Source: Halococcus saccharolyticus DSM 5350
GTDB lineage: Archaea > Halobacteriota > Halobacteria > Halobacteriales > Halococcaceae
Assembly (NCBI RefSeq): GCF_000336915.1
Contig: NZ_AOMD01000028.1
Location: 1 to 64,000 of the forward strand
Direction of reading: 5' to 3'
Length of the DNA stretch: 64,000 nt
Below, piece by piece: positions 1-38,737 of this stretch (positions are counted from its first letter, which is position 1; every line of letters begins with the position of its first letter). A model generated the notes under the pieces. It was not told the DNA's origin and made no database searches. It saw nothing but the letters and a program-made list of their open reading frames with translations. The translations under genes were made by a program, and so were the position numbers.

Positions 1-916
1 GGTCGTCGGGCACGTCGTCGGCCGACCGGTCGGGGAGTTCGTCTTCGGCTTCGAGCACGGTCCGGATTTCGGGATCGGCGTTGGCGTAGAACGCGCGCAC
101 CCACGCCATCGCGTCGTCTTCGCTCGCATCGCACGCCTCGCTCACCGCGCTGCCGAGCAGTCGGAGCTGGTGGACCAACGCCCGATCGATCACGTGAGTT
201 GCATCGGCAGAGCCGATCTCGAAGTTGGGTTTGAGCGTGACGTTGAACTCGTTGCCCTGGAGGTGACAGCCCCGCCGGATCTCCTCGGGGGCCTCCGAAA
301 GCACGTCAGAACGGAGTCGGTAGAAGACGTTCTGGATGGTCTCGTCCAGCTCCTCGTAGAGGAGCTGTTTGGTCTCTGGACCGTGACCGGGCGTAAATGC
401 TCCAGTGCCCGCCTCGTACACCACGCTGAGATCGCCGGAGTGGAAGATCTCGCTACCGAGACCCTGAATCAGGAATCCCTTCACGTTTTCGAGGGTCTGA
501 CCGGTGCAGATCACGATCGGCATCCCGGCCTCGTGGAACTCGGTCAGAAAGCCGAGCGTCTCACGGGGGATCTCGTTGTCGGTGCTCCCAGCGGAGCGCA
601 GCGTCTCGTCGACATCGAGCACGAAGGCGGAGACCGGCCGACCGTGACGTTCGCAGAGATCGAGCGCGGTGAACGCCTCGTCGCGCGAGGCGTGGGCCGC
701 GATCGCCGCGAGCGGTTCGCCTCGATCGAACGACTCCCGAATCTCGGCCTTCGACTCGGCGAGCGCGCTCTCTGCGTCCTGCCAGTGATCGAGCGCGACC
801 CGCGAGTCGACCGGCGGGAACACGTCGACGAACGTCTGATACGCCCGCAGCGTCCGGGTGTCGAACCGGTCGTAGAGCTCGTACAGAAGATCGTAGCGGT
901 CGCGAGTGCGGTTCAT
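1..916 (-). CDS. HAD-superfamily hydrolase (partial, 3' end outside window)
   Basis: This gene runs leftward off the window; 305 codons are visible from the ATG at 916. Near residues 99-106 it carries the HAD motif I DxDxT (D101, D103, T105), placing it among HAD phosphatases or hydrolases, which form an aspartyl-phosphate on the first Asp. About 100 residues of helical, acidic sequence precede the motif, which is long for simple HAD enzymes. The substrate cannot be read from the sequence. A TATA-like element about 27 bp upstream fits a leaderless transcript. Confidence 0.75.
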   Translation of the reverse strand, partial: MNRTRDRYDLLYELYDRFDTRTLRAYQTFVDVFPPVDSRVALDHWQDAESALAESKAEIRESFDRGEPLAAIAAHASRDEAFTALDLCERHGRPVSAFVLDVDETLRSAGSTDNEIPRETLGFLTEFHEAGMPIVICTGQTLENVKGFLIQGLGSEIFHSGDLSVVYEAGTGAFTPGHGPETKQLLYEELDETIQNVFYRLRSDVLSEAPEEIRRGCHLQGNEFNVTLKPNFEIGSADATHVIDRALVHQLRLLGSAVSEACDASEDDAMAWVRAFYANADPEIRTVLEAEDELPDRSADDVPDD

Positions 917-26734: not shown

Positions 26735-27370
26735 ATGCGGATCGCCTCGCACGCGTGGCGGTACGCCGCGCCGGCGTTCGTCCTCGCGCCAGTCGCGGGC
26801 CTGCTCTCGCCCGTCGCGGGCGTGGTAGCGCTCGCACTCGCCGGTCTCGTGCTCGTCTTCCACCGCGATCCCGAGCGGCAAGTGCCGTCGTCGGGGATCG
26901 TCGCACCCGCCGATGGCAGAGTGTCGGTCGTGCGACGGGAGGGCGAGCAGTTGCGCGTCGGGATCTACATGGGCGTCACCGACGTCCACGTGAACCGTGC
27001 GCCGCTCGCAGGCACAGTACGCGAGGTAAGCCACTCACCGGGCGCGAACCGTCCAGCATTCTCGAAGGAGTCGGATCGTAACGAGAACGTCGAGATCGAC
27101 TGCGGCACGTTCTCGATTGTCCAGATCGCCGGCGCGTTCGCACGACGCATTCATCCGTCGGTCGAGCCGGGTGACGAGATCGCGCGCGGCGAGCGGATCG
27201 GCCATATCAGTTTCGGGAGTCGGGTCGACGTCGTGCTGCCCGAAGGCATCGAACGTGAAGACCTCGACATCCGGAAGGGCGAGCGCGTCGTCGCCGGCGA
27301 AACGGTGCTCGCAGAGCACGAAGAGGCGGTCGCCGAGCAGCGGACGCAACCGCGCGTGGTCCAGGAGTAG
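26735..27370 (+). CDS. asd: archaetidylserine decarboxylase (PSD family)
   Basis: 211 residues. Begins with a membrane helix (AWRYAAPAFVLAPVAGLLS), then APADGRVSVV, MGVTDVHVNRAPLAG and ENVEIDCG. The FGSRVD segment near residue 165 holds the Gly-Ser cleavage site that becomes the pyruvoyl cofactor. It converts archaetidylserine to archaetidylethanolamine at the membrane. Short form typical of archaea. Convergent with PCNA across the hairpin region. Confidence 0.88.
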   Translation: MRIASHAWRYAAPAFVLAPVAGLLSPVAGVVALALAGLVLVFHRDPERQVPSSGIVAPADGRVSVVRREGEQLRVGIYMGVTDVHVNRAPLAGTVREVSHSPGANRPAFSKESDRNENVEIDCGTFSIVQIAGAFARRIHPSVEPGDEIARGERIGHISFGSRVDVVLPEGIEREDLDIRKGERVVAGETVLAEHEEAVAEQRTQPRVVQE

Positions 27371-27835
27371 GCGGTGCGGTCGCGGGCCTGGCGGATGAAG
27401 AGCGAGGGAACGAACGCCGGAGCACGCGCTGCGCGTGGTTCGAGGGAGCGAAGCTCCCTCGTCATCACGAAAGGCGCTTCGCGCCTTTCGAACGACTCCG
27501 AGCTCTCGTTCGCTTCGTCTGCTCACGGGCGCGAAGCGTCCTCAGAACGGCAAAGCCGTTCTGACGGGCTGCACGAGAGCTTCGCTCTCGTGAACGGAGT
27601 GAGTGACCGAGGGCTTCGGCGGTGCTGTGCGGTGGCGGTTGCGGAGTGAGAGTGATTCCACCGCGAGCGACCGCAGGAAGCGAGCGGAAGTTTTTGGTCC
27701 AGATTTTTGCGGGGGATTGAGCGCGCGAGCGGTGCGAGGCGCGAACGAAGTGAGCGTCTCGATGCGAACAGGGAGCGTAGCGACCCGTGAGCAGAGCGAG
27801 CGCGCGATTCCCCGAAGTAAAAAGGTGGGAGCTGG
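27371..27835. repeat. hairpin series in a 465-bp convergent intergenic region
   Basis: No credible gene is present. Five inverted repeats lie at 27423-27437, 27441-27461, 27468-27490, 27542-27564 and 27572-27592. The last four are perfect 9-10 bp stems with 3-nt loops (GAA, TTC, AAA, TTC), each loop flanked by GC on both sides. Farther right are T-tracts on the plus strand (near 27690-27715) that could end the asd transcript, and purine-rich GAGCGAA-type repeats (27720-27810). The segment at 27435-27454 recurs with one mismatch at 34660-34679. Confidence 0.75.
27819..27823 (-). terminator. T-tract terminator after pcn
   Basis: Five T on the minus strand, 13 bp past the PCNA stop codon, preceded by a purine-rich run; a likely transcript end. 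Confidence 0.35.
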
Positions 27836-28579
27836 CTAGTCAGACTGGATCCGCGGTGCGAGCATGAACGTGACCGAGCCCTCGGCCTCGGCGATGTCGA
27901 AGTGGAACTTCACGGGGAACTCCTCGCCAAGATCGAGCGTAACCTCGGCGTCGCTCGGGATCGCCTTGTTCATGTCCTTCAGGTAGTCGAGGCTGTACAG
28001 TGAGTGCGCCGGGCCGACGGTGAGATCGATGAGGTCGTCGCGGTCGAGCTCGAAGTGGACGTCGTCGGTGTCACCCTCGGCATCGACGTAGAACTGTTCT
28101 GCGTCCTCGTTCACGCCGAGCGCGATGTGATCGCTCACCATGTCCGCGGCCGTCACCGCGCGATCGACGTCGCGACCTTCGAGGACGATCGTCGCAGGGA
28201 GATCGAGGTCGGGGATATCGGGTTCCTGGCGGATGGAGTCGGGGTCGATTAGCGCGAGGGTGTATTCGAGGCCGTCGATCGAGATGTGGAGCTTGCGGGT
28301 CTCCTCGTCGAGTTCGAGATGCACGAGGTCGTCGGAGCCGGCCATCCCGGCGATGTCCTGGAGCCGCGAGAGGTTGACGCCGATCACGCCACCGTCGGCC
28401 TCGTAGGACTCGAAGGCCGCTTCCGAGAGCGTGAGGTCGACCATCCCGACGTTCGCGGGGTCCACCGCTCGAATCGCGATCCCGTCGTCGTTGAGATGGA
28501 TCTTACACTCCTCAACCAGCACGCTCACCGAATCGAGAGCCGTTCCGAGCGTCCCGGCGCTCACGATGGCGTTGAACAT
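27836..28579 (-). CDS. pcn: DNA polymerase sliding clamp PCNA
   Basis: 247 residues, beginning [49 protein letters not shown] (interdomain connector) and LAPRIQSD at the C-terminus are characteristic. It forms the trimeric ring that tethers replicative polymerases. ATG at 28579 is supported by the TATA box at 28601-28610; an upstream GTG in the same frame would give a non-family extension. Confidence 0.97.
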
Positions 28580-37927: not shown

Positions 37928-38737
37928 ATGGCCGAGACGACGGAGACGGGCGGGACCACCGCAGACGAGCCCGCCGGCACCGCGCCGCTCGACGACAGCG
38001 AGATGCCGCTCGCCGATCACATCGAGGAGATGGTCAAACGCCTCGGGATCGTGATCGTGGCGATGGGCGTCGTGAGCGGCATCGTCTTTCCGTTTGCCGA
38101 CGAGCTCATCAATTTTATCTGGTACGCCTTCCTCCCTGGTTCACCCACGGCCTGCCCGGTCGCGGCTGACCAGGCGAGTGCAGCCTGTCCGTACGTGTAC
38201 GACCCGCTCGCGCTCGTCCTCGCCCGGCTGAAGGCGGCATCGCTCGCGGGCTTCGTGGTCGCGCTGCCACTTTTCGTATATCAAACCTATCGGTTCATGC
38301 GCCCCGGTCTCTACCACAAAGAGCGTCGGTACTATCTCGCGGCAGTCCCCACGAGTCTCGTTTTTGCCATGATCGGGGTCGCGTTCGCCTTCTTCCTCGT
38401 CCTCCCGGTGATGTTCAACTACTTCCTTGGCTACTCGAAGCCCGTCGCAGAGATCGCGTTCGGGCTCGGTGATACGTTCGGGCTGATGACGCTGCTGATG
38501 GGGTTTTTCGCGCTGGTCTTCCAGATCCCGCTGTTCGTGATGCTCGCGATCATGATGGGGATCACGACGCGGGCGTGGCTCACGAGCCGGCGGCTCTACT
38601 TCTGGGGCGGGTTTGCTGGAGTTGCGTTCCTGTTCAGCCCCGACCCGACCGGAATGGCCCCCATCATCGTCGCCGCGACGATGATCGGGCTGTTCGAGGG
38701 CACGCTCCTTCTGCTCAGATGGACCGGACGCGGCTGA
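37928..38737 (+). CDS. tatCo: TatCo, single-domain Tat translocase subunit
   Basis: 269 residues, six helices. The start of the conserved domain, EMPLADHIEEMVKRL, corresponds to the TatC L-x-HL-x-ELR region. FMRPGLYHKERRYYLAA near 123 is the conserved FxxPGL loop, with glutamate E in HKER. It sits divergent from tatCt with 116 bp between, the standard haloarchaeal pairing. ATG at 37928 is preferred over upstream in-frame codons. Confidence 0.95.
   Translation: MAETTETGGTTADEPAGTAPLDDSEMPLADHIEEMVKRLGIVIVAMGVVSGIVFPFADELINFIWYAFLPGSPTACPVAADQASAACPYVYDPLALVLARLKAASLAGFVVALPLFVYQTYRFMRPGLYHKERRYYLAAVPTSLVFAMIGVAFAFFLVLPVMFNYFLGYSKPVAEIAFGLGDTFGLMTLLMGFFALVFQIPLFVMLAIMMGITTRAWLTSRRLYFWGGFAGVAFLFSPDPTGMAPIIVAATMIGLFEGTLLLLRWTGRG

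Follow-up and report, generated by a model that had tools for sequence, protein, structure and literature searches.

A dispersed composite hairpin element, probably a transcription-unit boundary, occupies the gap between asd and pcn in Halococcus saccharolyticus

The window, by which we mean the whole 64,000-nt stretch of contig NZ_AOMD01000028.1 of Halococcus saccharolyticus DSM 5350 that was analyzed, carries asd on the forward strand and pcn on the reverse strand, and the stop codons of these convergent genes are separated by a 465-bp gap, as a sequence-only reading of this DNA had described. The PCNA encoded in the window is 91% identical to those of H. morrhuae and H. thailandensis. The earlier reading had drawn attention to a series of small hairpins in the gap, and we confirmed its four perfect inverted repeats with 3-nt loops at exactly the positions it gave, the GC...GC closing of the loops in all four, and a fifth, shorter hairpin (CACGCG-CTG-CGCGTG) (Table 1). 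The whole 64-kb window holds six perfect triloop stems of at least 9 bp, four of which lie in the asd-pcn gap, compared with about 1.1 expected per 64 kb in third-order Markov sequence; the reported hairpins are far above chance expectation. The sole other such stems lie at window positions 347-367, inside a predicted gene (CAGCTCCTC-GTA-GAGGAGCTG), and at 38663-38685 (ATCATCGTCG-CCG-CGACGATGAT). The predicted RNA fold of the entire gap lies 6.6 standard deviations below those of shuffled sequences.

Table 1. Features of the asd-pcn gap and its flanking genes, in window coordinates.
Feature	Position	Strand	Basis
asd, archaetidylserine decarboxylase; left neighbor, not needed by the element	26735..27370	+	NF038088, E=3e-92
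GCGGT-rich leader	27371..27386	+	
Module A, expandable hairpin	27387..27632	+	arms 27387-27406 and 27608-27632
Module A basal helix	GAAG 27397-27400 with CTTC 27614-27617	+	
Module A apical insert, 201 nt, contains the reported hairpins	27407..27607	+	
Short triloop hairpin	27423..27437	+	sequence
Hairpin 1, 9 bp, loop GAA; first half of two-hairpin cassette	27441..27461	+	
Hairpin 2, 10 bp, loop TTC; second half of two-hairpin cassette	27468..27490	+	
Hairpin 3, 10 bp, loop AAA (TTT or GAA in copies elsewhere)	27542..27564	+	
Hairpin 4, 9 bp, loop TTC	27572..27592	+	
Rod hairpin before U tract, CCGC-GA-GC-GA-CC-GCA-GG-AA-GC-GA-GCGG	27660..27690	+	covarying helices, GNA triloops
T5-GGTCCAGA-T5, candidate + strand terminator tracts	27691..27708	+	T5 in 119/136 copies, covariation
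Tail hairpin	27709..27818	+	
A5, read as T5 on the - strand; 12 nt past the pcn stop codon	27819..27823	-	
Right edge of the element, GGTGGGAGCTGG, pairing partner of the N8 spacer	27824..27835	-	
pcn, DNA polymerase sliding clamp; element at its 3' end	27836..28579	-	NF002222, E=2.5e-108

The gap is filled by one copy of a larger composite element, and the reported hairpins are a variable insert within it. Comparison of the gap with its own genome yielded 91 matching pieces in about 40 places, and the dispersed copies read within this genome gave a family consensus of CCTGGYGGATSRAGGGCGAG (insert) CGAGGGCTYSGGCGGTGCTGTGCGGT ... on the left, ACCGCGAGCGA-xy-GNA-y'x'-GAGCGAGCGG-n-TTTTT-N8-TTTTT (hairpin) in the middle, and AAAAA-GGTGGG-stop codon of the opposite gene at the right end. 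The core has a fixed order: the rod hairpin, which consists of tandem G·A pairs and is closed by a GNA triloop, then T5, N8, T5, a hairpin, A5, and finally the opposite gene's stop codon. The hairpin tips of the element are expandable and accept interchangeable cassettes, mainly triloop mini-hairpins; the reported array is the cassette group in the tip of module A, whose apical insert is 10 to 22 nt long in most copies versus 201 nt here. A further expandable tip, that of the tail hairpin, carries a 62-bp apical insert at 27727-27788 and is independent of the reported array. Short direct repeats of the GCGGT-rich leader recur 3' of module A and flank a block that is absent from the nearest relative. 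Module A is often directly preceded by a separate hairpin module, CTCAGGAGAGC-NNN-GCTCTCCTGG (loci L011, L013, L017, L030, L302, and L303).

A covariance model for the element, built from 13 copies, recovered about 80 strong copies in this genome and at least 72 to 113 copies in each of the 10 Halococcus genomes examined. In a related genus, four genomes hold 19 to 37 copies each, one genome of another genus holds 23, and weaker matches, probably partial, occur in 95 of 118 genomes of the order. Among the 147 genomes and 56 genera sampled from the order, a smaller core, TTTTTNNNCCANNTTTTT-hairpin-AAAAANGTGG, is present in 79 genomes and 36 genera, and the same pattern read backwards had 0 occurrences in the same genome sample. 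Outside Halococcus, the core often has a quite different hairpin right before the first T5; 15 of 20 right-hand genes there are encoded on the opposite strand, and nine of these end within 7 nt of the core. A search of plasmids returned one weak partial match only, in Natronococcus. Rfam gave no match at an E value of ≤1 for the window region or of ≤0.5 for four canonical copies, and our search of an open-access library turned up neither the core sequence nor any account of repetitive palindromes in haloarchaea; the element is apparently undescribed.

Three genomes supplied 136 copies for an evaluation of where the element lies relative to genes. In 112 of 134 copies (84%), the right-hand gene runs on the opposite strand, while the left gene may be on either strand (63 + and 70 -); neighbors are convergent at 53 copies and divergent at 12 of 134. 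The divergent-gene copies include L122, L008, and the orthologous L203, and one is conserved between two species. The + strand T5 was present in 119/136 copies and is kept whether the left gene points toward the element (45/53) or away from it (52/58). In most copies, the - strand T5 follows the right-hand stop codon by 3 to 11 nt; a T5 within 16 nt of the stop codon was found for 87 of 112 element genes versus 0 of 54 control genes, the latter being the other long genes of the window. Given the T5 at the right-hand stop codon and a left gene that points either way, we consider the element to belong to the 3' end of the right-hand gene. Between species, copies were found at the same gene as a copy here in 28 of 37 and 19 of 26 cases in two other species, and the matched flanks at these common sites always run left to left and right to right, so that orientation is kept. 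The similarity of copies at common sites was 0.688 versus 0.666 for unrelated copies, the module A subtype agreed at about the chance level (27 same, 22 different), and the module A insert was identical at only 1 of 49 common sites. Position and pairing are conserved between species, and the letters are not. Homogenization within genomes was rejected, as similarity was 0.657 within a genome and 0.666 between genomes.

The pairing of the element is strongly maintained. In alignments of 69 and 107 distinct copies, which were fitted to the covariance model and are biased toward it, 97.4% and 96.5% of the cells of modeled base pairs were paired, compared with 24 to 41% when the partners were slid, and 15 of 23 and 19 of 23 pairs, respectively, had changes on both sides. 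A model-free count of the module A helix in 131 copies gave GAAG/CTTC in 92, CGAG/CTCG in 38, and a broken helix in 1. The rod hairpin is supported by covarying helices 4-5 of A2 and 5-7 of A3, and a first long-range result from RNAalifold, in which module A paired with the T tract, was dropped, the local hairpins covarying instead. In the gap studied here, the CCA of the N8 spacer pairs with TGG beside the end of pcn; across copies, N8 covaries with the bases that follow A5 (CCA/TGG in 49, GAA/TTC in 12, and CGA/TCG in 5, with the rarer GTA/TAC in 4, AAA/TTT in 3, and GCA/TGC in 2), indicating that the tail hairpin extends to the end of the opposite gene. The inverted repeat even takes in the stop codon at L114, L130, and L161 (TGAACC...GGTTCA, TAAACG...CGTTTA), and thus the element there mirrors the end of the adjoining gene. 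The small hairpins have the form GA-xy-loop-y'x'-GA, with loops of three (210), four (15), or five (27) nucleotides. Perfect triloop stems of at least 8 bp numbered 121 in 133 element-bearing gaps versus 1.6 expected, which makes the hairpin architecture genus-wide; 100 of the 121 are closed by GC, and 52 distinct stems are represented. The commonest, found 13 times among the 121, is CAGGAGAGC, the stem of the separate module that often precedes module A.

For 80 of 80 copies, folding with either RNA or DNA parameters favored the + strand over its complement, and therefore the working form could be RNA, DNA, or both. The G-U pairs that are kept point to an RNA form, and the GNA triloops point to a DNA form. 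We considered that the + strand might give rise to a structured RNA or 3' untranslated region element that acts on mRNA stability or in trans. The strong + strand fold and the covariation would suit such an RNA, but only about half of the copies have a left gene on the + strand, so in the other half no neighboring mRNA carries the structured strand, and the lack of an Rfam match also counts against it; we regard this explanation as improbable. A locus-specific RNA was rejected because the family is dispersed, and a 3' untranslated region element of the left gene was rejected as a general rule because that gene points either way. GNA triloops and tandem G·A pairs are very stable DNA hairpin motifs. 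The presence of tandem G·A pairs, a GNA sequence in 177 of the 210 triloops, loops that flip orientation, and independence from transcription of the left gene would all be in keeping with a DNA structure element, in which very stable single-stranded hairpins or cruciforms formed by the + strand act on supercoiling, replication, or recombination. However, G-U pairs are kept at several positions, and the constant T tracts and the stop-codon placement point to transcription, making this the least probable of the explanations weighed here.

The array itself behaves as a dispersed cassette. The sequence-only reading had taken the hairpins for a structure under selection rather than a copied repeat; the second half of that statement does not stand, as a 96% identical full-length copy of the array is present in another Halococcus genome (G005), and array matches number 10 to 38 per genome in all ten Halococcus genomes. 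The two-hairpin unit reads GGTTCGA-hairpin-TCGTCATCACGA-hairpin-TCGAACGAC, with loops in both orientations (GAA/TTC and AAA/TTT). Its stems vary with pairing kept, CGAGGGAGC, CGAGAGAGC, CGAAACGGC, and others for hairpin 1 and CGAAAGGCGC, CGAAAGACGC, CGAAACGGC, and others for hairpin 2. Selection on structure is supported by the abundant compensatory changes in the host element and by array stems that occur in up to eight fully paired versions per hairpin. Among 54 array-like loci selected by similarity to the array alone, 37 have other features of the element, versus 6 of 56 background windows; the remaining 17 have no other element feature in the test used, and confinement of the cassettes to the element was rejected. 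Array cassettes are enriched at the element and are not exclusive to it. At L275, which belongs to another haloarchaeal genus, a mini-hairpin cassette with tandem G·A pairs (GAGCGAACGAAGTGAGCGAG) directly follows an apparent tRNA 3' part (GGTTCAAATCCGGTCCCGCGCA) that is repeated downstream.

These properties bring to mind a mosaic of the REP/BIME kind, in which selfish or semi-selfish palindromes spread among insertion-tolerant gene ends and the terminator-like features are incidental. Such a mosaic would account for about 100 extragenic, mosaic copies per genome, for cassettes that are present or absent at one site, and for the dispersal of the array in both orientations, but it fits poorly with sites and orientation that are conserved between species and with T tracts and pairing conserved up to the stop codon, and the genome also lacks a Y1/RAYT transposase: the PF01797 profile found no match in it, while control genomes were positive in the same search. 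We consider this explanation unlikely, and a REP with its own transposase was rejected on the absence of PF01797. The earlier suggestion of a mobile-element footprint holds for the cassettes, but the whole element is placed at conserved gene ends.

Behind pcn, the T5/hairpin/A5 core is intact in 8 of 10 genus genomes and interrupted in one (G005), and no core was found there in G008; the left neighbors are of three kinds, on either strand. The closest relative, G001 (PCNA 98%), retains asd together with the rod hairpin, the two T5 tracts, and the base of the tail, and two blocks are missing from it: 248 bp (~27384-27631), comprising module A and the whole array, and the 62-bp insert of the tail hairpin (~27727-27788). 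The array as such is thus not conserved at the pcn site. The GCGGT repeats flanking the larger block are short and common. The tail hairpin at the pcn end of G004 contains a related two-hairpin cassette that is inversely oriented. The sequence-only reading had looked to close relatives for the paired stems and for compensatory changes; the nearest relative lacks the array, whereas compensatory changes are abundant. Several Halococcus genomes also carry extra divergent PCNA genes, whose identity to the main copy is 30 to 63%; they are found at G000:C2:102211-102948 (L308) and at several places in G005 and G009 and are perhaps of plasmid or viral origin.

Collectively, these findings suggest that the gap holds a copy of a composite bidirectional transcription terminator, or transcription-unit boundary, of which there would be about 100 per Halococcus genome at gene 3' ends, and we assign this reading a probability of roughly 0.6. 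A termination or insulation device had been one of the functions proposed earlier, and it is the one best supported by the T tracts, the range of the core, and the covariation; termination itself we infer. RNA polymerase on the + strand would arrive by read-through from a convergent gene or by antisense transcription, make the rod hairpin, and terminate at the U tracts before the right-hand gene, so that rightward transcription would be stopped without an antisense run into that gene. The transcripts of the right-hand gene itself would end at the T5 directly behind its stop codon. The extra hairpins may add pausing or insulation or may be tolerated passengers, and either role would account for hairpins that vary in sequence and number yet stay paired. 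In Haloferax volcanii, T stretches serve as the intergenic termination signal, 503 mapped termination sites are preceded by hairpins, and a reporter assay of one hairpin gave 59% termination (PMC7237163). In the element, a stable hairpin directly precedes the T tract on the + strand only; on the - strand, the stop codon stands in that place. Several observations count against the terminator reading. The T5 tracts are 5' of the tail hairpin on both strands and do not follow a stem, unlike the tract of a textbook bacterial terminator. Module A and long arrays are absent at pcn in the nearest relative, the element occurs at only about 3% of genes, and a terminator is unexpected between divergent genes. 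A simple terminator and sigma-70 scan, which ignores tandem G·A pairs, called nothing in the window.

A broader and more speculative proposal, possible though doubtful, is that the Halobacteria have a class of bidirectional boundary elements not described before, each taking part of its structure from base pairing to the guarded gene's 3' end, and that in Halococcus the hairpin tips are docking sites for cassettes continually exchanged, with pairing preserved, by a DNA mechanism that also flips the loops (GAA/TTC and AAA/TTT). The insulation of neighboring archaeal transcription units is poorly mapped. The family offers about 100 natural variants per genome, replicated at the same genes across species, and together with the presence or absence of a cassette at one site, as at pcn here versus the closest relative, these make termination and insulation directly testable. 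Our findings also raise the question of what swaps hairpin cassettes with pairing kept, given that no Y1 transposase was found.

GNA-triloop DNA mini-hairpins such as d(GCGAAGC) are known mainly as isolated motifs. The hairpins of the element share with them a GNA triloop closed by G-C pairs beside tandem G·A pairs, but here the motif is reused in large numbers in one genus. Mini-hairpins of this type have been used in aptamers (PMC4686876). The element resembles archaeal intrinsic U-tract terminators, as mapped in H. volcanii (PMC7237163), in its T stretch, its preceding hairpin, and its location behind genes and between convergent genes. It differs from them in that a fixed spacer of 8 nt separates two T5 tracts, T5 and A5 lie within a tail stem extending to the stop codon of the opposite gene, the hairpin cassettes can be exchanged, and a conserved sequence is dispersed as a family. 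Like miniature inverted-repeat transposable elements, it exists as dispersed short noncoding copies with cassettes gained or lost at a site, but it has no visible common terminal inverted repeats or target duplications, and its sites are common to several species. It shares with bacterial REP/BIME sequences (PMC2817692) the roughly 100 or more extragenic palindromic copies, the mosaic makeup, and the location at gene ends, but it is a much longer compound structure with T tracts and with sites conserved between species, in a genome without a Y1 transposase match. In function, the element would be a bidirectional terminator, and in its dispersal, it is comparable to a REP mosaic.
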